A DNA stretch of 64,000 nucleotides. It comes from Winogradskyella arenosi (GTDB lineage: Bacteria > Bacteroidota > Bacteroidia > Flavobacteriales > Flavobacteriaceae). This document shows positions 8,138 through 55,918 of this stretch, piece after piece (the first letter of the stretch is position 1; every line of letters starts with the position of its first letter). A program made the translations under genes and the position numbers. Under the pieces are notes generated by a model. The model worked only from the letters and a program-made list of their open reading frames with translations. It was not told the DNA's origin and did no database searches. The DNA is taken from contig NZ_QPJO01000004.1 in the NCBI RefSeq assembly GCF_003337305.1, forward strand, positions 62,001-126,000. Direction: 5' to 3'.

Positions 8138-9400
8138 ATGACCATGAAAAACGAAACACAAGTAAAATGTCCTAACTGTGGGACATCTATAGATGTTCAA
8201 GATATATTGTCGCACCAACTTGAAGAAGAGATCAAGCAGAAATACCAATCTGAAATTGCCAGAACCAAAAAGCAATACAGCGTAGAGCAAGAGAAGTTAA
8301 AGCAAGAAAAATTAAATTTTGAACAGAAAAAAAAGCGTGAAAACGAGTTGTTTCAAGAGCGTTTAGCTCAGCAATTAAAGGCCGATAAAAAAGAGATTGA
8401 ACACAAGCTGAAACAGAAGCTTAAAGATGAACAATTAGAGCAGTTTGAAGCCCTTCAGAAAGAATTAAATGAGAAATCTGCCCAGGTTAGAGAGCTTAAC
8501 CGATCTAAAGCGGAAATTGAAAAATTAAAGCGTGAAAAAGGAGAGCTGAAAGAAGCGGCTGAAGCAGAAGCTCAAAAGCGTTTAAACGACATTCTTCTTG
8601 CAGAACGCGAGAAAATAAAAAAGCTTGAAGAAGATAAAAACGAATTGCGTTTTAAGGAAATGCAAAAACAGTTAGAAGACCAGAAAAAGCTTACTGAAGA
8701 AATGAAACGCAAGCAAGAACAAGGCTCCATGCAATTGCAAGGTGAAGTTCAAGAATTAGCGATAGAGGAGTGGTTGGCTACTAAATTTCCTTTAGATACC
8801 ATTGAAGAAATCAAAAAAGGGGCTCGTGGTGGCGATTGTCTTCAAGTGGTCCATACCCGAACTGAACAAAACTGCGGAACCATTTATTACGAAAGTAAGC
8901 GAACTAAGGATTTTCAGCCTAGTTGGATTGAAAAATTCAAAGCCGATATTAGAGATCGTGGGGCCAATGTTGGGGTTTTAGTAACTGAAGTGATGCCTTC
9001 AGACATGGACCGAATGGGATTAAAAGACGGCATTTGGATCTGTAATTATGAAGAGTTTAAAGGTCTTTGTACCGTATTGCGTGAAGGTATTTTACAAGTT
9101 AATAATGCTTTGGTGACGCAAGAAAACAAAGGCGACAAAATGGACTTGCTCTACGATTACCTTACTAGCAGTACTTTCCGAATGTCTATTGAAGCCATTG
9201 TAGAAGGTTTTACACAAATGAAATCGGACTTAGATAGCGAAAAACGTTCTATGCAGCGTATTTGGAAGCAACGTGAAAAACAAATTGAAAAAGTAGTGAT
9301 CAATACCATCGATATGTATGGTTCTGTAAAAGGTATTGCCGGAAATGCCATTCAATCTGTAAAAGCCTTAGAACTTCCTGAAGGCGATTTGGAGGATTAA
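8138..9400 (+). CDS. DUF2130 protein: CxxC motif, long coiled coil, PD-(D/E)xK-like C-domain
   Basis: A 420-residue protein. It begins with a CPNCGTSI motif (Cys 11/14), followed by a very long Glu/Lys/Gln coiled coil (about 25-200). The C-terminal domain (about 205-345) matches DUF2130. Within it, D233 in GGDCLQVV and an E-x-K in IYYESKRTKDF (E252, K254) are spaced like a PD-(D/E)xK nuclease core. Nuclease activity is my inference. The role in the cell is not established for this family, though RmuC-like coiled-coil nucleases are a plausible analogy. The start may instead be the ATG at 8144. Confidence 0.8.
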   Translation: MTMKNETQVKCPNCGTSIDVQDILSHQLEEEIKQKYQSEIARTKKQYSVEQEKLKQEKLNFEQKKKRENELFQERLAQQLKADKKEIEHKLKQKLKDEQLEQFEALQKELNEKSAQVRELNRSKAEIEKLKREKGELKEAAEAEAQKRLNDILLAEREKIKKLEEDKNELRFKEMQKQLEDQKKLTEEMKRKQEQGSMQLQGEVQELAIEEWLATKFPLDTIEEIKKGARGGDCLQVVHTRTEQNCGTIYYESKRTKDFQPSWIEKFKADIRDRGANVGVLVTEVMPSDMDRMGLKDGIWICNYEEFKGLCTVLREGILQVNNALVTQENKGDKMDLLYDYLTSSTFRMSIEAIVEGFTQMKSDLDSEKRSMQRIWKQREKQIEKVVINTIDMYGSVKGIAGNAIQSVKALELPEGDLED

Positions 9401-9439
9401 ACGATATGAATTCAAAAAAGTTAAATCTATCCTAATTGA

Positions 9440-9457
9440 CCTATGTCAATGCATAGG
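9440..9457. promoter_or_regulatory. palindrome upstream of the OYE gene (possible operator)
   Basis: An inverted repeat CCTATG-n6-CATAGG lies 50-67 bp before the start of the alkene reductase gene. It sits just upstream of a weak -7-like TAACTTTA at 9472-9479. The 18-bp size and position fit a regulator site, but no consensus is recognised. Confidence 0.35.
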
Positions 9458-9506
9458 CGCTACGAAATTCGTAACTTTAGGTCATTGAATTTTTAAAAAA
9501 AAGCAG

Positions 9507-10601
9507 ATGAATACACAACACTTACTTACTCCATATCATAAAAATATCACTTTGAAAAATCGCGTTGTAATGGCGCCGATGACGCGGAGTCGTGCAGACA
9601 ACAAAGCTAAAGTTCCGACTAATGATTTACACGGTTTATATTACGAACAGCGTGCTTCAGCCGGCCTTATTATTACGGAAGGTTCTCAGGTTTCTAAAGA
9701 AGCTGTTGGTTATATTAACACCCCAGGAATTCATTCAGAAGCCCAAGTGGAAGGTTGGAAATCGGTCACCAAACGTGTGCATGATAAAGGCGGAAAAATC
9801 TTTATTCAGTTATGGCATGTGGGGCGCATTTCTCATCCTGATTTTCATGATGGCGAACTCCCTGTTTCGGCCTCTGCAATAAACCCGAAGGCACAGTCGT
9901 ACACCCCATCTGGATTTAAGGAAACCGTAACACCAAAAGAAATGACCATAGAAGACATAAAGCGTACGGTAAAAGATTTTCAACAAGCCGCGGCCAATGC
10001 CGTTGAAGCGGGCTTTGATGGTGTAGAAATTCACTCTTCAAACGGTTATTTATTTCAACAATTTTTCAATAATTGTTCTAACCAAAGAACGGACGATTAT
10101 GGGGGAAGCATTGAAAACAAAACAAGATTCTTTTTTGAAGTTTTAGAGGCTTTAAAAGAGGTGATTCCGCAAGAAAAGATTGGAGTTCGTTTTAACCCTT
10201 CAGCACACGGTCTTTTTGGTATTACTGTAGATGAAGAAACCATTCCGACGTTTGAATATATCATTAAAAAACTGAACGATTATAATCTTGCTTATGTGCA
10301 TTTATCAGAACCCTTTACGGATGTATCAGATGTTCCGTTTGCCGTAACCGATATCGCGAAGCACTTTCGTCCTTTATACAACGGAACGCTTATGATTAAT
10401 GCCGGATTTGACCAGAATAAAGGAAATAAGATTATCGCCGATGGTGATGCCGATCTTGTGGCCTACGGAAAACTTTATATTTCCAATCCCGATTTAGTTG
10501 AACGTTTTGAACAAGGTTTAGAACTTTCAGAATGGGATGAAGACACCTTTTACACCACAGGAGAAAAAGGCTATACGGATTACCCTGCGGCTTCAAAATA
10601 A
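9507..10601 (+). CDS. Old Yellow Enzyme family alkene reductase (FMN)
   Basis: A 364-residue TIM-barrel flavoprotein. Family landmarks are VVMAPMTRSRA at the N-terminus, QLWHVGRISHP, the substrate-binding H-x-x-N in GVEIHSSNGYL (around 175-178), the RTDDYGGSIENKTRF signature, and the C-terminal GYTDYPAA. Enzymes of the NemA/OYE group use NAD(P)H to reduce the C=C bond of activated alkenes such as enones, maleimides and nitrate esters. It is not in the TetR-controlled operon at 13.6-18.6 kb, but it fits the same detoxification theme. It is monocistronic, with its own palindrome upstream and terminator downstream. Confidence 0.93.
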   Translation: MNTQHLLTPYHKNITLKNRVVMAPMTRSRADNKAKVPTNDLHGLYYEQRASAGLIITEGSQVSKEAVGYINTPGIHSEAQVEGWKSVTKRVHDKGGKIFIQLWHVGRISHPDFHDGELPVSASAINPKAQSYTPSGFKETVTPKEMTIEDIKRTVKDFQQAAANAVEAGFDGVEIHSSNGYLFQQFFNNCSNQRTDDYGGSIENKTRFFFEVLEALKEVIPQEKIGVRFNPSAHGLFGITVDEETIPTFEYIIKKLNDYNLAYVHLSEPFTDVSDVPFAVTDIAKHFRPLYNGTLMINAGFDQNKGNKIIADGDADLVAYGKLYISNPDLVERFEQGLELSEWDEDTFYTTGEKGYTDYPAASK

Positions 10602-10620
10602 AGCTGTTTTACAACCTACA

Positions 10621-10658
10621 AAGCATGATTTCGTCCTTAGATGAAATCATGCTTTTTT
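10621..10658 (+). terminator. rho-independent terminator of the OYE gene
   Basis: A 12-bp inverted repeat AAGCATGATTTC / GAAATCATGCTT with a short loop is followed by a run of T, 19 bp after the OYE stop. Confidence 0.9.
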
Positions 10659-10721
10659 TATGCCTTTTAATTTGTTATTTTACAGTATACCAATAGCTTT
10701 GTTTCAGTAGTAATTTAAGGT

Positions 10722-11762: not shown

Positions 11763-12662
11763 CTAAGAGTATAATATTAAGCCTACACCAATCATAATCC
11801 CTAAAAGTGGCACCAACTTTTTACGTTTGTTTTGCTCTTTAAAGACCAAACCACCTACAACCACCGCGATTAGAATTTGGCTTCGTTTTATGGCAGACAA
11901 TAGCATAATTAGGGCGTCAGAGTCTTGAAGCGCTTTAAAATAAAAATAATCTGCCGCTTGTAATAACACCCCAACTGCAATGATGGACCAACGAAAGGTA
12001 AAGGCACGCCGTTTTTCGGCATAAGGAAACCAAGTTACGGTAAGAATAACTAGTAAAATAAGTATGGTATAAAAGCAAAACCAGAATTGTAAGGTTTGTG
12101 GATTTAGACTTAGATTCTGAATTAAAAACTTATCGTACAAGCCACTAGAAGCTCCTAAAAACGTGGCGCCTATAATGGCAAAAATCCACTTATTTCGTTT
12201 GAAATTGATGCCTTCTTTTTTTCCAATTTTAGAATATAAGATGACTGAAAATATAATGAGGAAAAAACCAATCCATTGCAAGACATTTGGGCGCTCTTGA
12301 TAAATTAATATCGCACCAATAAAGGTAAAAAAGGGACCAGCTGACCGAATAGGCGTAACAATGGTTATGGGTAAGTGTTTAAGTGCTTGATAAGCTAGAA
12401 TCCATGAACTGGTCATTATAGCCGATTTTATAAAAATAAAACCATGTGTAGACCAAGGGAGTTTCTGAAAATTATAGCCGTTAGCAATAGCATATTCAGG
12501 ATAGTATAAGGACAAGAGACAGAAGCTTGCAATAAACAAAAAACCACTAGAAACCGTTCCTAATAACACAGGAAACACTTCATTTCCTTGTACGGCATGC
12601 TTCTTACAAAGATTGTGTAACCCTAAAAAAAGTGCCGCTAATAAGCCTAAATACATCCACAT
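11763..12662 (-). CDS. EamA/DMT family transporter
   Basis: A 299-residue protein with about ten hydrophobic helices arranged as two EamA repeats, which is the normal size for the drug/metabolite transporter superfamily. Typical motifs are TPIRSAGPFFTFIGAILIYQE near the end of the first repeat and a Lys/Arg-rich loop (YSKIGKKEGINFKRNK) between repeats. The substrate cannot be predicted from sequence; members export metabolites or take up amino acids and sugars. It is probably monocistronic. The ThiE-like gene upstream reads the same way, with a 62-bp gap. Confidence 0.85.
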   Translation of the reverse strand: MWMYLGLLAALFLGLHNLCKKHAVQGNEVFPVLLGTVSSGFLFIASFCLLSLYYPEYAIANGYNFQKLPWSTHGFIFIKSAIMTSSWILAYQALKHLPITIVTPIRSAGPFFTFIGAILIYQERPNVLQWIGFFLIIFSVILYSKIGKKEGINFKRNKWIFAIIGATFLGASSGLYDKFLIQNLSLNPQTLQFWFCFYTILILLVILTVTWFPYAEKRRAFTFRWSIIAVGVLLQAADYFYFKALQDSDALIMLLSAIKRSQILIAVVVGGLVFKEQNKRKKLVPLLGIMIGVGLILYS

Positions 12663-12724
12663 GGCGCGAATATAATATTTAGCACCTAATTGCTTCCCGT
12701 AAGGCCTTTGTTTTTTGCACTATT

Positions 12725-13372
12725 TTATTCGAAGGTATGCCGCTGTTCTGCAATCACCGAGGCTTTAAGGAGGTGATGAAACGTTTTTATAGTATCAAAA
12801 TTTTGAGTAATCTCCTCTGAAACAGCCACTCCAGATACACCGGTTTCTAAAATGTCTTTAACTGCAGTAGTCTTAATACCTCCAAAACCAATAACAGGTA
12901 TTGGCGTCTGTAAAACTTCCATAATTGCGGCGTAACCTTTAATTCCTAAAGACGGCTTAGAAAGAGTCTCTGAACCTTCAACCTTATAAGGTCCTAAAAA
13001 TATATAATCGACTTCTTTTTGTACTAAAGCTTCACAGTCTTGGAGGGTATAAGCTGTAGCTCCTATAATTTGCCAGGTATACAATTCGGTCCTTAAACCT
13101 GTAGGGCAGCGGTCCGCATTTTCAATATGAACCCCATCGGCTTTTACAGCTTTAGCGACCTCATAAGCATCACTAATAATTAATCGGGTTTGAAAGTGAC
13201 TTGTAATCCCTCGAGCCGATTGCGCAAGTTCTAAATGTTCAGCTTCGGGAAACGTTGCTAGCGATAGCTGTACCCATTCCGCACCAGACGTGCAGGCACT
13301 TTGAATATTTTGTAACATAATTTCTGCTGTTGCTCCTTCAGAAATATAATGTAGTTTAGAAACGTTTCTCAT
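12725..13372 (-). CDS. thiamine-phosphate synthase-like protein (ThiE/TenI family)
   Basis: A 215-residue TIM barrel of the TMP-synthase/TenI superfamily. LIISDAYEVAKAVKADGVHI corresponds to the pyrophosphate/Mg2+ region, DYIFLGPYKVEGS to the GPhxxTxxK loop, and PVIGFGGIKTTAVKDILETG to the C-terminal phosphate loop. ThiE couples HMP-PP and thiazole phosphate; TenI-type relatives aromatise the thiazole. No other thi gene is in the window. The loop lacks the usual T-x-T-K spelling, so either role is possible. Confidence 0.72.
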   Translation of the reverse strand: MRNVSKLHYISEGATAEIMLQNIQSACTSGAEWVQLSLATFPEAEHLELAQSARGITSHFQTRLIISDAYEVAKAVKADGVHIENADRCPTGLRTELYTWQIIGATAYTLQDCEALVQKEVDYIFLGPYKVEGSETLSKPSLGIKGYAAIMEVLQTPIPVIGFGGIKTTAVKDILETGVSGVAVSEEITQNFDTIKTFHHLLKASVIAEQRHTFE

Positions 13373-42802: not shown

Positions 42803-43534
42803 TTAAATACTGATAAGATAATTCTTATGGTACATCTTTTTATAGATGTCTTTACTAAACATATAGAGTTGCGCTGGTTTTTTAGAAACACCAACTTGCT
42901 TTTCATCTAAAGGAATAATGTATTTTTTATTGATGAGTTTTCGTCTAAAATTACGATTGTCAATTTCTATCCCCAAAATAGATTCATACAAATCCTGAAC
43001 ATCATTAATGGTGAATTTATCTGGTAACAATTCAAAAATAATAGGTTCCGCTAAACACTTGGTTTTTAAATCTTCATGCGCCTCTTCTATAATCTTCTTA
43101 TGATCGAAGCCTAATTCGGGCAAAGATCTTAACGGAAACCATTTAGCTTGGTACTTATTACGTGTAACATCAACATCTTCTGTTTTTAATAAAAAATAGT
43201 AGGCAATCGTGATGGTACGTAAACTAAAGGCTTCTTTATCAATCCAAATTAAATCCTTCTCACTTAATAAACGATCAGGATCTCCAAAGGCTTTAAATTG
43301 CTTTTTATACTGATTGGTTAATCCCGTTAATTCCTTTAATACACGGGTTGCCGAATCATCTAAAGTTTCATCTTCATAAACATGGTATCCTGTAAGGACA
43401 TAGTCGTCAACTAAAACCTCTTTCTCTTTAGATTCTAAGTAACGTTTTATCAGTAAAACATTTAAAGATTTAGTAATTGTGTCATAACCAAAAACCACAC
43501 AATCTACAGATATATTAGAAATTTTATTAGGCAT
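42803..43534 (-). CDS. Nudix-type transcriptional regulator (NrtR/AraR-like)
   Basis: A 243-residue protein: a Nudix domain (about 1-150) and a C-terminal winged helix (about 155-243; TINDVQDLYESILGIEIDNR, RKLINKKYIIPLDEKQVG). In the Nudix box, GYHVYEDETLDDSATRVLKE followed by LTGL, two catalytic Glu positions of the REUxEE core read V and L. It should therefore bind a sugar-type ligand rather than hydrolyse. Nudix regulators control sugar and NAD genes in Bacteroidota. It is divergent from the outer-membrane protein gene and polyol genes, with two matching palindromes in between. A decayed copy lies at 51064-51430. Confidence 0.87.
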   Translation of the reverse strand: MPNKISNISVDCVVFGYDTITKSLNVLLIKRYLESKEKEVLVDDYVLTGYHVYEDETLDDSATRVLKELTGLTNQYKKQFKAFGDPDRLLSEKDLIWIDKEAFSLRTITIAYYFLLKTEDVDVTRNKYQAKWFPLRSLPELGFDHKKIIEEAHEDLKTKCLAEPIIFELLPDKFTINDVQDLYESILGIEIDNRNFRRKLINKKYIIPLDEKQVGVSKKPAQLYMFSKDIYKKMYHKNYLISI

Positions 43535-43573
43535 AATTTGTTTTTAACGGTGTTAAATGTAGCACAATAATTT

Positions 43574-43600
43574 TATTAAACGTCAATATAACATTAAATA
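43574..43600. promoter_or_regulatory. Nudix-regulator operator O1
   Basis: TATTAAACGT-n7-ACATTAAATA, an imperfect dyad 40-66 bp upstream of the Nudix regulator start. It shares arm sequence and 7-bp spacer with the perfect palindrome at 43725, consistent with autoregulation. Confidence 0.6.
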
Positions 43601-43688
43601 TTTATTGAATAAAAGCCAAGCCACATCAGTATTCTCATATCAATATAGCATAGTATTAAGCTAATATAATATATTTTTTGGCTTTATA

Positions 43689-43722
43689 TTTTGTAATATT
43701 CAAAATATATTTTATACATTTG
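43689..43722 (+). promoter_or_regulatory. Bacteroidota-type promoter of the outer-membrane protein/polyol operon
   Basis: -33 element TTTTG (43689-43693), 21-bp spacer, -7 element TACATTTG (43715-43722) matching TAnnTTTG. The expected start site falls inside the palindrome that begins 3 bp downstream. Confidence 0.7.
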
Positions 43723-43724
43723 AC

Positions 43725-43751
43725 TAATAAACGTAAATATGACGTTTATTA
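43725..43751. promoter_or_regulatory. Nudix-regulator operator O2 (perfect palindrome)
   Basis: TAATAAACGT-n7-ACGTTTATTA: 10-bp perfect arms and a 7-bp spacer, placed over the predicted transcription start. Binding there would block transcription. Confidence 0.75.
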
Positions 43752-43776
43752 AAATATAATCTTAGACCATATAGAA

Positions 43777-44680: not shown

Positions 44681-44806
44681 ATGAAAACAATAGCCGATAC
44701 CTTCGTTGGTGTTACAAAAATCGCTAAGGCTTCAGGAATTCCTATTTTTATTACGGGTCGTTCTATTAATCCTTTAGCAGAATTAGGAACCACGATGCTG
44801 ACTTAA
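44681..44806 (+). pseudogene. possible glycerate-kinase-type remnant (41 codons)
   Basis: A 41-codon frame reading KTIADTFVGVTKIAKASGIP then IFITGRSINPLAELG. 'VGVxKIAKxxxIP(V/I)xxxxG' is the pattern found in glycerate kinases (GarK/GlxK). Everything upstream of it is missing. It lies between the porin-like gene and mannitol dehydrogenase, where a kinase would make sense. The identification is by eye and tentative. Confidence 0.3.
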
Positions 44807-44849: not shown

Positions 44850-46349
44850 TTGATGACAGCTTACACCTTAAAACAAGACCACTTAGACGCGATATCGGAA
44901 CATATATCGATCCCTAAATATCAAAGACGTCAACTAAAAACGGGCATTGTCCATATTGGTATTGGCGATTTCCATCGTGGACATCAAGCCTATTACACGG
45001 ATCAATTATTACACGACACCTCAATTACAGACTGGGGCATCTGCGGAGTAGCCTTATTGCCATCAGATATTAAAATATATAAGGCGCTTAAAAAGCAAGA
45101 TGGCCTATATACGTTAATGGTAAAAGAATTTGATGGCGCACTCACTAAACGGGTCATTGGTTCTATTACGGAAGTTTTATTCGCTCCAGAAAATCCAAGT
45201 AAAGTCATAAAAAAGATGGCCAGTAGTGCCGTTAAAATTATCACCCTAACCATTACAGAGCGTGGCTACAACTACAATGAAGTCACCAAAGCTTTTGACG
45301 ATCAAAACCCCAATATACGCCACGATATTGCCAATCCACTAATGCCTAAAACGGTGTTTGGTTATCTTACGCAGGCTTTAAAACTTAGAAAAGAAAAAGG
45401 CGCTAAAGGGGTAACCATTCAATCTTGCGATAATATCCAAAGGAATGGTCATATGGCTAAGAATATGCTTTTAAGCTATGTAAGACTTGCAGAACCTTCC
45501 TTAGTGTCATGGATTGAAACTCATGTTTCGTTTCCTAATAGTATGGTAGACCGTATAACACCAACAACAACAGCTTCAGATATTGCAATTTTAAAAGCCA
45601 CCACAAACATTAAAGACACATGTCCAGTGGTATGTGAACCTTTTAAGCAATGGGTTATTGAAGATGATTTTGTTAATGGTCGCCCACTTTGGGATGCTGT
45701 TGCGGCTCGATTTGTAGAGGATATTGTGCCCTATGAAAAAATGAAATTAAGCCTATTAAATGCGGGTCATACCGTACTCGGCATTTTAGGAGCCTTATTA
45801 AGTTACAAGACTATTGATGAAGCCGTACATGATGAAGATCTCCGTACTTTTCTAGAACAGTATATGGATCATGAAGTCAGCCCAACCTTATCCGATTTAA
45901 AAGGTGTGGACCTAGAGCATTATAAAGCTTCTTTATTACAGCGCTTCGGAAATGTTAGTATTAAAGATCAAATTGACCGTATTTGTTCTGAAAGCGCTTC
46001 TAAAATTCCAATTTTTGTTTTACCGACCATTACCGCTAATTTAGAATCTGAAGGGCAAATTAAATGTGCCGCCCTTTTAATTGCTGGGTTTGCCATCTAT
46101 AGTTTAGGTAGAAATGAACAAGGAAAGTCCCTCAACATAAAAGATGCTATGGAGGCCACTTTAAGGAAGAAAGCTGCCCAAGCAGCAAACGGACAACCGG
46201 AAGCCTTCTTAGAGATTGAATCCGTTTTTGGATTATTGAAATCGTCACCCTCGTTTGTAAGCGCTTACACCAAAGCTTATAACACCTTAAGAACCTCAGG
46301 AGTTAAGGCCTGTATTAAAACCTATACCAATAACCGTATCAATTGCTAA
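44850..46349 (+). CDS. mannitol dehydrogenase family protein, copy 1 (polyol/uronate dehydrogenase)
   Basis: A 499-residue long-chain, zinc-independent polyol dehydrogenase. The N-terminal Rossmann region is TGIVHIGIGDFHRGHQAYYT. The catalytic K-x(7)-N-x-x-H is in YEKMKLSLLNAGHTVLG. It oxidises a polyol (mannitol, arabitol) to the ketose with NAD+. Several otherwise conserved spots have drifted relative to copy 2 at 53534: GDFHRGH for GGFHRAH, TERGYN for TEGGYN, NIQRNGH for NIQGNGH. The start is the first or second of two adjacent ATGs. Confidence 0.87.
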   Translation: MMTAYTLKQDHLDAISEHISIPKYQRRQLKTGIVHIGIGDFHRGHQAYYTDQLLHDTSITDWGICGVALLPSDIKIYKALKKQDGLYTLMVKEFDGALTKRVIGSITEVLFAPENPSKVIKKMASSAVKIITLTITERGYNYNEVTKAFDDQNPNIRHDIANPLMPKTVFGYLTQALKLRKEKGAKGVTIQSCDNIQRNGHMAKNMLLSYVRLAEPSLVSWIETHVSFPNSMVDRITPTTTASDIAILKATTNIKDTCPVVCEPFKQWVIEDDFVNGRPLWDAVAARFVEDIVPYEKMKLSLLNAGHTVLGILGALLSYKTIDEAVHDEDLRTFLEQYMDHEVSPTLSDLKGVDLEHYKASLLQRFGNVSIKDQIDRICSESASKIPIFVLPTITANLESEGQIKCAALLIAGFAIYSLGRNEQGKSLNIKDAMEATLRKKAAQAANGQPEAFLEIESVFGLLKSSPSFVSAYTKAYNTLRTSGVKACIKTYTNNRINC

Positions 46350-46379
46350 TTCCCCTATATTTATAATAGCAATTCTTCG

Positions 46380-46413
46380 AAGGTTTATGGCGAAAGTCAT
46401 AAACCTTTTTTTT
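46380..46413 (+). terminator. terminator of the first polyol operon
   Basis: AAGGTTTATG / CATAAACCTT perfect 10-bp stem with an 8-nt loop and a T-run, 31 bp after the mannitol dehydrogenase stop. Confidence 0.95.
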
Positions 46414-46642
46414 GTTTTTATCGTGAAGCCATCCAGTGCAGAGAAGTTGTCTTTATAGTTTTTAAATGACTATCCTGCATTTATTTTCATTTGTAAACAA
46501 AAGTTTAACTTAATAAAGCTATAAGTTGATTTTTGGCTTTGTAAATTTACATTTTGAAAGGCCACTTTACATTAGGATTCAGCCTTAAAAAAGGCCTTCA
46601 GCAATCACAATTATTATCAGTAAAAATTTATATACCCCATTA

Positions 46643-51063: not shown

Positions 51064-51430
51064 TTAAACCACTTTGTTATAGACGGCTCTACCAAACCTA
51101 TAGAGTTCCGCTATTTTTTTCAGAACCCCAATTGGTTTTTCATCTAGAGGAATAATGTATTTTTTTTATGAATTAGCATTCGTCTAAAATTTCGATTATT
51201 AAAATCTATTCATATCAACTTGTACAAGTCTTGCACCTCGTTCATCGTAAACTTATCTAAAGTTTCTGATTTACTGAGGCATTCTACTACAAGCACATCA
51301 TCATCATCAGCTACAACGTCCTCGTAATCTTTAAGAGTTAAATAACGTGGTATCAACAAATCATTTCAAGATTTCGAACTAGTGTCATACCCAAACACTA
51401 CACAATCTACTGACAAATTTGATCTATGTT
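51064..51430 (-). pseudogene. decayed copy of the Nudix-type regulator gene
   Basis: Read leftward, the C-terminal end is AELYRFGRAVYNKVV then stop, matching AQLYMFSKDIYKKMY of the intact regulator at 42803. DNA such as GGAATAATGTATTTTTT is shared with that gene. The N-terminal end still resembles the DCVVFGYDT region, but the central Nudix part (about 110 residues) is deleted. Small indels and stops break what remains. The two ends join at a short TCTAAAG-type sequence. The product cannot be made. Confidence 0.8.
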
Positions 51431-51503
51431 TCTATTTCCACAACACAATTCAATTACAACAATAAAACCTTATTCTTGAGCACATCTAAACTATGATAAA
51501 CAT

Positions 51504-51530
51504 CATTAAACGTCATATTTACATTAATAA
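51504..51530. promoter_or_regulatory. operator O3 (degenerate copy of O1)
   Basis: CATTAAACGT-n7-ACATTAATAA. It keeps the ACGT-n7-AC(A/G)T core and spacing of O1 and lies 150 bp before O4, just as O1 lies 151 bp before O2. Confidence 0.5.
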
Positions 51531-51653
51531 TCATTAACACTTTAGCTTCCTTAAAAATATGTATTTATCAATATAGTATAGTTAATAAGTAATTTAACAC
51601 ACATTTTCTCCTCAAAAACGACAATTTCTTATTTTTTTGCAATACATTTGAAA

Positions 51654-51680
51654 AAACAAACGTAATTATGACGTTTATAA
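51654..51680. promoter_or_regulatory. operator O4 (copy of O2) at the permease promoter
   Basis: AAACAAACGT-n7-ACGTTTATAA begins 4 bp after a TACATTTG -7 element (51643-51650). This is the same geometry as O2 and suggests control by the surviving Nudix regulator. Confidence 0.65.
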
Positions 51681-51812
51681 TATAAGCGTCGACCGAATTG
51701 TAATTTTCATACGATAACAAATTCCATTAATGTGAATTTTAAGCGTTAGCCATAACACTTAAACTGTTGAAAACGTGAATTACAATACCTTAAGATCATA
51801 AAAAGCGATATT

Positions 51813-53533: not shown

Positions 53534-55033
53534 ATGAAAAATATAATCAAACTTAATCAAAAGAATTTAGCTGAAATTTCTAAAGAGATTCCTACTCCAA
53601 CTTACAATAGAAGTCAATTAAAAACAGGTATTGTTCATGTTGGCATTGGAGGTTTTCACAGAGCTCATGAAGCATTTTATACCGATCAATTATTACAAGA
53701 TGAATCCATTACGGATTGGGGGATTTGCGGGGTCGCTTTATTGGATTTCGACACCAAAATCTACAACACCTTAAAGGAACAAGATGGTTTATATACTTTA
53801 ATCATTAAAGAACTCGATGGTACGCATACCAAACGTGTTATTGGAGCGATTACAGATTATTTATTTGCTCCTGAAAACCCAGGTAAGGTTATAGAGAAAA
53901 TGGCAAGTCCTGATGTTAAAATCATATCATTAACCATCACAGAAGGAGGTTATAATTATAATGAAGCCACTCAAGAATTCGATTTTAGTAATCCTTTAAT
54001 TCAACACGACTTAAAACACCCACAAGCGCCTAAAACTATTTTTGGGTACTTAACACAAGCTTTAAAACTAAGAAAAGAGCGCAGCTTAAAAGGTTGTACC
54101 ATTCAATCTTGCGATAATATCCAAGGTAACGGACACATGACCAAGAGAATGTTAATGAGCTATGTACAAACTGCTGAACCTGAATTAACAGATTGGATTG
54201 AGACTAACGTGTCGTTTCCAAATGCTATGGTAGACCGTATTACGCCGGCAACATCAGCTTTAGATATTGAAACACTAAAACAAACTTCAGGCATTGATGA
54301 TGCTTGGCCTGTGGTTTGCGAACCGTTTAAACAATGGGTTATTGAAGATGATTTTATCGCCGGAAGACCTGCTTGGGAAACCGTGGGTGCACAGTTTGTA
54401 AAAGATGTAGTGCCTTACGAAAAAATGAAATTAAGCTTACTTAATGCAGGACACTCCGTATTAGGTATTCTCGGTGCTTTATATGGTTATTCTACTATAG
54501 ATGAAGCAGCTAGTAATGCCGATATCAGTTCGTTTTTACGAATTTATATGGGGAATGAAGTGACCCCAACTTTAGGAGACCTAGAGGGGGTGAATTTAAA
54601 AAATTATAAATTTTCTCTTATACAACGTTTCGGAAATACTTATATTAAAGATCAAATTGAAAGAATCTGCTCTCAGAGCTCAGCTAAAATACCGATCTTT
54701 ATTTTACCAACGGTGTATAAACAATTAGAACAAAAAGGAAGCATCAATCATGCGGCTTTTATCATTGCTGCGTTTGCGATTTATAGCTTAGGACAAAATG
54801 AATTCGGTACACAACTCATTATTAAAGATGCTATGGAAGCCGAGCTAAACGAAAAAGCTATTGCTTCTCAAAATAACCCAACCGCATTTTTAGAATTAGA
54901 AAGCATTTTCGGAACCCTTAAAAACGATGAGACCTTTGTAAAAGCATACAATGAAGCTTATCTAAATATTGTTCAAAATGGTATTGAGAAATCCGTTAAG
55001 GACATTAATAGTAACGTTTTAAACGACATCTAA
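53534..55033 (+). CDS. mannitol dehydrogenase family protein, copy 2
   Basis: 499 residues, the same length as copy 1 and colinear with it. It retains the consensus motifs TGIVHVGIGGFHRAHEAFYT, TITEGGYNYNEAT, SCDNIQGNGHM and the catalytic YEKMKLSLLNAGHSVLG. It should oxidise a polyol such as mannitol to fructose with NAD+. It is the middle gene of a tight permease-dehydrogenase-kinase operon (2-bp and 0-bp gaps), which matches import, oxidation and phosphorylation of one substrate. Confidence 0.9.
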   Translation: MKNIIKLNQKNLAEISKEIPTPTYNRSQLKTGIVHVGIGGFHRAHEAFYTDQLLQDESITDWGICGVALLDFDTKIYNTLKEQDGLYTLIIKELDGTHTKRVIGAITDYLFAPENPGKVIEKMASPDVKIISLTITEGGYNYNEATQEFDFSNPLIQHDLKHPQAPKTIFGYLTQALKLRKERSLKGCTIQSCDNIQGNGHMTKRMLMSYVQTAEPELTDWIETNVSFPNAMVDRITPATSALDIETLKQTSGIDDAWPVVCEPFKQWVIEDDFIAGRPAWETVGAQFVKDVVPYEKMKLSLLNAGHSVLGILGALYGYSTIDEAASNADISSFLRIYMGNEVTPTLGDLEGVNLKNYKFSLIQRFGNTYIKDQIERICSQSSAKIPIFILPTVYKQLEQKGSINHAAFIIAAFAIYSLGQNEFGTQLIIKDAMEAELNEKAIASQNNPTAFLELESIFGTLKNDETFVKAYNEAYLNIVQNGIEKSVKDINSNVLNDI

Positions 55034-55918
55034 ATGAAAAATATAGTTTGCTTTGGCGAAGTGTTATGGGATGTTTTCCCTACACATAAAAAGATAGGAG
55101 GAGCGCCTTTAAATGTGGCGTTACGCTTGCAATCTTTAGACAACAACGTATCTATCATTACCAGAATAGGAGCGGACACTAAAGGTACTGAAATTGCTAA
55201 TTTCATTAAGGATCACGGCGTGAATACTGAAAACATTCAAATTGATGATATTTTAGAAACAGGAGCGGTTGATGTCATTTTAGACAAAACAGGATCTGCA
55301 ACATACACCATTAACCATAACCGTGCTTGGGATAATCTGCAAGTCACAGACACCGCTTTACAAGCCACTAAACAAGCCGATGCTTTTATATTTGGGAGTT
55401 TAGTCGCTAGAGATCATACGTCGCGCACCACCTTATTTAATTTATTAGAAGTCGCAAATTATAAAATCTTAGATATTAATTTAAGAGCACCACATTACAC
55501 CAATGCTGTCTTAAAAGAATTGATGACTGTGGCCGATTTTATAAAATTTAATGACGATGAGATTTTTGAAATTGCCGATTCAATGCATTTCAAATCAGAG
55601 CACCTAGAAGAGACTATACGTTTTATCGCTAAACAAACGGGCACAGCAAGTATATGCGTTACAAAAGGTAGTCATGGCGCCGTTTTATATTATAATGAAA
55701 CGTTTTATCACAATAAAGGGTACCACGTTAAAGTCGCAGATACCGTAGGCGCTGGGGATTCTTTTTTAGCAGCAATTATCAATAAATTACTCAAAAAAAA
55801 TAGTCCACAAGACGCCTTAGATTTTGCTTGTGCTATGGGTGCTTTAGTAGCCAGTAGCGAAGGGGCGAACCCTAAAATTGAAACCGAAACGGTACATCAA
55901 TTTATGGAGCAAAGCTAG
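55034..55918 (+). CDS. PfkB-family sugar kinase (fructokinase-like)
   Basis: A 294-residue ribokinase-fold kinase. N-terminal IVCFGEVLWDVFPTHKKIGG and GAPLNVALRLQSL bind sugar. The C-terminal ATP/anion-hole motif is ADTVGAGDSFLAAI, with catalytic Asp in GAGDS. It closes the pathway polyol to ketose to ketose-phosphate. The start codon follows the dehydrogenase stop directly (TAAATG). The substrate is inferred to be fructose from the neighbouring mannitol dehydrogenase. Confidence 0.9.
   Translation: MKNIVCFGEVLWDVFPTHKKIGGAPLNVALRLQSLDNNVSIITRIGADTKGTEIANFIKDHGVNTENIQIDDILETGAVDVILDKTGSATYTINHNRAWDNLQVTDTALQATKQADAFIFGSLVARDHTSRTTLFNLLEVANYKILDINLRAPHYTNAVLKELMTVADFIKFNDDEIFEIADSMHFKSEHLEETIRFIAKQTGTASICVTKGSHGAVLYYNETFYHNKGYHVKVADTVGAGDSFLAAIINKLLKKNSPQDALDFACAMGALVASSEGANPKIETETVHQFMEQS

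Follow-up and report, generated by a model that had tools for sequence, protein, structure and literature searches.

Two mannitol-type gene clusters in the window

The window analysed here is a stretch of 64,000 nucleotides on contig C4 of the 3.67-Mb genome of Winogradskyella arenosi, an organism probably of marine origin. It carries two mannitol-type gene clusters, each with a pair of operator-like dyads in its control region (Table 1). Between them, the clusters retain a single regulator, omp, transporter and kinase gene each, along with two dehydrogenase genes.

Table 1. Genes, gene relics and operator-like dyads of the two clusters, in window coordinates
Feature	Position	Strand	Basis or remark
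NudR, intact Nudix/winged-helix regulator, 243 aa	42803..43534	-	Pfam; nearest structure BtAraR
Cluster 1 outer operator-like dyad	43576..43598	.	pattern search, comparison of control regions
Cluster 1 inner operator-like dyad	43727..43749	.	directly downstream of TACATTTG
omp, predicted outer-membrane beta-barrel, 291 aa	43777..44652	+	adjoins NudR in many relatives
ABC sugar-binding-protein gene relic	44696..44796	+	77% over 101 bp, E 4e-18
MDH1, mannitol dehydrogenase family	44850..46349	+	PF01232, PF08125
Gap between MDH1 and ORF 46643	46350..46642	.	kinase gene stands here in G042
Decayed NudR of cluster 2	51064..51430	-	genome blastn, local alignment with shuffles, comparison with relatives' genes
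Cluster 2 outer operator-like dyad	51506..51528	.	beside dead regulator gene
Cluster 2 inner operator-like dyad	51656..51678	.	directly downstream of TACATTTG
Multi-pass permease, 572 aa	51813..53531	+	no Pfam match; adjoins MDH and kinase genes
MDH2, mannitol dehydrogenase family	53534..55033	+	PF01232, PF08125
pfkB-type sugar kinase	55034..55918	+	PF00294 149 bits; 81% to G040

The structure model of omp has a mean pLDDT of 77 and barrel-like strands, and a fold search returned generic outer-membrane beta-barrels only, with low TM-scores. In a quick tree omp groups with the omp of two relatives, G042 and G031 (96). The relic behind omp matches positions 12310-12410 of locus L035, in the middle of the binding-protein gene (11947-12999) of G042, whose ABC genes encode a periplasmic binding protein, an ATPase and a BPD_transp_2 permease. 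Within the gap behind MDH1, positions 46499-46558 match G042 DNA downstream of the G042 kinase. Cluster 1 thus appears to have once comprised NudR, omp, an ABC transporter, a mannitol dehydrogenase and a kinase, of which the transporter and the kinase have been lost.

The permease of cluster 2 matched nothing in Pfam at E<=10 beyond one chance-level match and no family in NCBIfam, and its profile found no relative in the PDB at E<=1. Its structure model (mean pLDDT 39) is too poor for use. Marine gammaproteobacteria have related proteins, of which three, at 44-46% identity, carry the annotation nucleoside transporter. On megaplasmids of Pseudoalteromonas and Catenovulum, the two inspected among 10 matching records, a permease of 66-67% identity stands directly before MDH-family and carbohydrate-kinase genes. 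It is cluster 2 that brings this transporter without a Pfam family to notice. The kinase, which reached the cut-off of none of the NCBIfam subfamilies shown, is a putative fructokinase by context. No omp gene is present in cluster 2; since omp is also absent from 7 of the 15 permease-type clusters of relatives, its absence here may be old. Cluster 2 would once have consisted of NudR, the permease, a mannitol dehydrogenase and the kinase, and has lost its regulator.

MDH1 and MDH2 both match PF01232 and PF08125 above the cut-offs and contain KxxxxNxxH, the motif of the long-chain mannitol dehydrogenase family, which places them in that family. Their best matches in NCBIfam, fructuronate reductase and arabinitol dehydrogenase, and 11 others all score below the cut-offs. 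From family and context, we infer that both enzymes probably act on mannitol, yielding fructose. Both look constrained, with dN 0.059 and dS 1.1 between MDH2 and its G040 counterpart, and dN 0.17 and saturated dS between MDH1 and its G042 counterpart.

NudR is an AraR-like regulator

NudR combines an N-terminal Nudix domain with a C-terminal winged helix, the arrangement that distinguishes Nudix regulators of the AraR/NrtR type. Its Pfam matches, PF21906 NrtR_WHD (86 bits), PF19368 AraR_C (46.5 bits) and PF00293 NUDIX (22.9 bits), all lie above the cut-offs. The closest solved structure is BtAraR (5bs6), with E 2.7e-36 over residues 7-233; 3gz5, which we take to be the NrtR of Shewanella, is far weaker at E 1.2e-11. 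Against the NCBIfam equivalog of the ADP-ribose NtrR (NF050029), NudR scores 84.3 bits, below the curated cut-off of 400. Because BtAraR is the nearest structure and the score for the NtrR equivalog falls this far below its cut-off, a sugar is more likely to be the effector of NudR than ADP-ribose. Read by eye, the Nudix box appears to be without the glutamate pair that the consensus has. The best named relatives of NudR (88-90%) come from W. pacifica, W. psychrotolerans RS-3, W. eximia, W. costae and W. thalassocola. NudR is a candidate mannitol regulator of the AraR-like kind, present in loci of 18 named flavobacterial genera; none of the literature matches listed describes, in its title or the start of its abstract, a Nudix regulator of flavobacterial mannitol genes.

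Remains of a second regulator gene

A first-pass annotation, made from the sequence alone, read the minus-strand stretch beside the cluster 2 dyads as a second regulator gene that had decayed, lost its middle and gathered indels. Alignment and blastn agree with this reading. Local alignment of 42803-43776 with 51064-51812 gave a score of 235, whereas 200 dinucleotide shuffles gave 74 +/- 10 and reached at most 110.5. The control regions by themselves gave 112.5, compared with 53 +/- 8 (maximum 82.5), and the similarity is thus above all 200 shuffles there too. Within the genome, blastn found three collinear pieces shared by the intact and decayed regions, of 185 bp at 74% (E 5e-27), 103 bp at 77% (E 3e-13) and 53 bp at 80% (E 2e-5). 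About half of the gene is left (365 aligned columns of about 730 bp); the middle is absent, and the remaining parts contain stops and many gaps. A global alignment is meaningful at the two ends only, not in the middle. The decayed gene shares 70% identity with its G016 counterpart and 68% with intact NudR of its own genome. At sites invariant in six relatives it is altered in 34 of 190, and the relatives' own genes are altered in 3-11 of 196-204.

Paired operator-like dyads

The first-pass annotation also described paired dyads at both loci, the inner one following a TACATTTG -7 element, and we find the same arrangement, with the dyads 151 bp apart at locus 1 and 150 bp apart at locus 2. In the whole genome the exact operator pattern occurs five times, at each of the four dyads and once within an ORF of 395 aa; the reversed pattern, searched genome-wide as a control, gave no match. 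Among 15 relatives, 7 have matches to the pattern elsewhere in the genome as well, and some true outer dyads escape it.

A dyad pair 147-153 bp apart is present in 43 of 49 control regions (both window loci counted), of which 39 were found automatically and four by eye (Flavivirga, L. himadriensis, P. vadi and U. antarcticus). The six exceptions, three Wenyingzhuangia (178, 179 and 180 bp), Polaribacter Hel1_85 (200 bp), a Polaribacter MAG (134 bp) and a Maribacter MAG (87 bp), decide neither way on helical phasing of the pair. Across the 40 control regions with an automatic spacing of 140-160 bp, the dyad spacing has an SD of 1.7 bp; the distance from the regulator start to the outer dyad has an SD of 13.9 bp (locus 2 excluded). 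Judging from its spread among relatives, the paired arrangement is old.

Two further elements were observed in these regions. A block TATCAATATAG(C/T)ATA lies between the dyads, at 43638-43652 and 51566-51580, and is common to both control regions and partly conserved across relatives. A third inverted repeat, TAAGCGTTA...TAACACTTA, with another spacer, is located at 51740-51761 in the leader of the permease operon.

Clusters in related genomes

We searched the genomes of 99 relatives, 59 of which, besides our own, belong to the same genus. Of the 55 cluster loci fetched, 7 are second copies of the same genomes, leaving 48 distinct relatives' loci. NudR is accompanied by an ABC transporter in 30 of these, by the permease in 15 and by neither in three, two of which are MAG contigs that end nearby. 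Most of the 48 loci contain omp, and an MDH-family dehydrogenase and a kinase are each found in 45. At E<=1e-120, NudR is present in 16 of the 60 genus genomes (own counted), once in each, and a family sample of 397 genomes contains 15 with NudR (own counted) and never more than one. A genome with two undegraded clusters, the state that the first-pass annotation had suggested looking for, is absent from the 60 genus genomes and from the family sample, as is any genome with two close regulators.

Two dehydrogenases of the MDH1/MDH2 kind occur in the window genome only among the 60 genus genomes. In the other family genomes with NudR (n=14), 13 have one dehydrogenase and one has a second (52%, one stop); this second gene lies on the opposite strand beside the first (G333:C1:1399447-1403320).

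In the rpoB tree, sister species differ in their transporter: G014 has the permease and G031 the ABC transporter, and the same holds for G016 and G042 (both 100/100). The loci of G014 and G031 (L036 and L037) have very similar regulators and the same left-flank genes, with the permease in one and omp and the ABC transporter in the other. By sequence, this is a transporter swap behind one regulator, and it places two unrelated kinds of transporter behind the same regulator in sister species. A remnant is seen in G002 (L046, ~9233-10682, reverse complement), where NudR minus its first 36 residues adjoins a kinase remnant and neither a transporter nor a dehydrogenase of the cluster kind lies beside it.

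Position and phylogeny of the two clusters

Cluster 1 lies between ORF 42122 and ORF 46643, the exact place of the ABC-type cluster in G042. In G040, ORF 42122 is ~245 bp from ORF 46643 and no cluster stands between them. Cluster 2 lies between ORF 49099 and ORF 56010, which adjoin each other in G042 with no cluster between. The permease-type cluster of G040 follows ORF 49099, but one other gene intervenes and ORF 56010 was not found in ~18 kb to the right of that cluster, which limits the positional agreement for cluster 2 to its left side. A close ORF 49099 is present in 3 of the 13 other genomes asked, and the positional comparison therefore rests on two genomes.

Comparison of the two downstream dehydrogenases, which the first-pass annotation had proposed as a check, shows them to be 65% identical and members of different clades. 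MDH1 falls with G042, G031, G014, W. costae and G052 (six rows, 100/100) and MDH2 with G040 and G016 (100/99). These are separate starred clades, and a sister relation of MDH1 and MDH2 is rejected (AU p=0.0009). The Maribacter MAG (52% identity) was omitted from this careful tree.

The control region of locus 2 matches those of five permease-type Winogradskyella clusters with 89-125 bits over 182-247 bp, and that of a sixth, G019, with 57 bits; its matches to the five compared members of the intact regulator's clade (G042, G031, G014, W. eximia and W. costae) reach at most 55 bits. When control region and gene are concatenated for one tree, locus 2 groups with the six permease-type relatives (99/99); placing it in the clade of the intact regulator is disfavoured (p=0.027), and a sister relation between locus 1 and locus 2 has p=0.135. 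With the control region alone, the sister relation is rejected (p=0.005) and the intact clade is borderline (p=0.064); the permease-type rows were not all united in the free tree (p=0.26). The control-region trees took 39 of the 49 control regions. For the dead gene alone, which is too short and too diverged for placement, the AU test rejects neither membership of the intact clade (p=0.50) nor a pairing with intact NudR as its sister (p=0.43).

Retention of the orphan operators

Sites at which at least five of six permease-type relatives agree were scored, and locus 2 was compared against them. The outer dyad is changed at 0 of 20 such sites and the inner dyad at 1 of 20, whereas the remainder of the control region is changed at 30 of 116 (dyads 1/40 against 30/116, Fisher p=0.0009). 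In the well-aligned parts of the decayed gene, 46 of 227 sites are changed. Compared with this, the dyad pair is better preserved (Fisher p=0.003), and so is the outer dyad alone (p=0.03); for the inner dyad alone the difference is not significant (p=0.14). Against the whole dead-gene alignment (78/297) the values are 0.0002 for the pair, 0.005 for the outer and 0.03 for the inner dyad, but we prefer the stricter figures because the middle of that alignment is poor. The selection on the operators that the first-pass annotation had suggested is therefore upheld for the pair, weak for the outer dyad by itself and unsupported for the inner dyad by itself. These data support the view that the dyad pair of cluster 2 is still in use.

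Discussion

The first-pass annotation held that a second copy of the regulator died while its control region survived with both dyads, and that both transcription units now answer to the remaining copy. Our analysis bears out the first point and is in line with the second, as one close regulator is left and its operator pattern is found at both places. Its further proposal, a duplication of the unit inside this genome, is not supported by the separate places of the clusters in G042 and G040, the different clades of the dehydrogenases and the control-region scores. It also passed over the decay of cluster 1 itself, from which transporter and kinase are gone. The better reading is that two xenologous or anciently separate clusters were reduced to one split regulon. 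We favour, with a probability of roughly 0.78, two mannitol-type clusters of separate descent that underwent complementary decay, with the surviving NudR probably acting on both. As the source of the separate clusters, we infer transfer, not old duplication.

An older duplication, before many genera split, could have been followed by differential loss, with the window genome keeping both lineages. Both transporter types do occur in sister species (G014/G031 and G016/G042) and in several genera, and such a history predicts the same pattern as separate acquisition. We regard it as unlikely, since among the 60 genus genomes two dehydrogenases are found in the window genome only, 13 of the 14 further family genomes have one, and the permease-dehydrogenase-kinase order on two gammaproteobacterial megaplasmids, with 66% permease identity, speaks for transfer.

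A different objection concerns the operators. The regulator gene may have died recently and the cluster 2 dyads may have been kept by chance, with cluster 2 now constitutive or otherwise regulated. The excess change in the dead gene is low, ~12/93 at first and ~11/92 at second codon positions, and 20 unconstrained outer-dyad sites would therefore stay intact with a probability near 0.06. The dyads have nevertheless changed less than both the gene and the rest of the control region, and their spacing has been kept at 150 bp, which makes chance survival quite improbable. Least credible is a duplication of the regulator-operator-polyol unit within this lineage followed by the death of one regulator copy: gene order, dyads and detectable sequence similarity are common to both regions, and the dead gene's own tree and the concatenated test allow a sister relation, but the dehydrogenases belong to different clades, the control region alone rejects sister loci, each cluster stands singly in a relative where the other's place is empty, and the relic in cluster 1 derives from an ABC transporter and not from the permease.

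Under separate descent with complementary decay, cluster 1 would have kept NudR, omp and MDH1, and cluster 2 the permease, MDH2 and the kinase. In the most likely scheme, the surviving NudR is a trans-acting repressor of both operons. A NudR dimer on each inner dyad would cover the DNA that directly follows the -7 element, and a second dimer on the outer dyad, ~150 bp away, may add to the repression. A sugar of the mannitol pathway would release NudR from the dyads.

The survival of the outer dyad beside a dead gene hints that both operators serve the permease operon, although the statistics are modest; alternatively, the gene may have died recently, or leftward transcription into ORF 49099 may need to be silenced. 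It is possible, at somewhat below even odds, that the two operators ~150 bp apart silence the polyol operon jointly, through a DNA loop or dimer-dimer contact. The outer operator would then be part of the operon's switch, beyond self-control of the regulator. The control region of cluster 2 provides a natural test, with its regulator gene dead and its operators and their spacing kept under a regulator of another lineage, and this orphan region offers a way to ask what the distal operator is for.

The kinds of element involved, an AraR-type regulator and cluster exchange with complementary loss, are already known. The window adds a concrete case in which complementary losses probably turned two separately inherited catabolic clusters into a single split regulon that has one regulator and an operator code that can be recognised.

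Comparison with known systems

BtAraR (BT0354) is described as an L-arabinose-responsive repressor of the NrtR family from Bacteroides; it binds DNA as a dimer, L-arabinose releases it, and the Nudix catalytic residues are missing (PMC4666351). NudR shares with it the combination of Nudix domain and winged helix, and its candidate operators, like those of BtAraR, are semipalindromic, ~21 bp long and placed at sugar-utilization promoters. The gene neighbours of NudR are of the mannitol type, not of the arabinose type. The two operator-like dyads of NudR are separated by ~150 bp and span a divergent region; the sites described for AraR stand in tandem with 3 or 42 nt between them. With dyads 150-151 bp apart and genes of the mannitol dehydrogenase family, NudR does not qualify as a BtAraR orthologue by operator layout.

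NrtR, the ADP-ribose-responsive regulator of NAD genes, resembles NudR in its family fold and the PF21906 match; NudR differs in standing in a sugar gene context and in scoring below the cut-off of the NtrR equivalog. Among flavobacteria, a mannitol utilization system of Zobellia galactanivorans was reportedly described by Groisillier in 2015. In Zobellia uliginosa (L078), NudR, omp, the ABC transporter, the mannitol dehydrogenase and the kinase stand in one cluster, whereas in the window genome they are split over two decayed clusters whose transporter histories differ.
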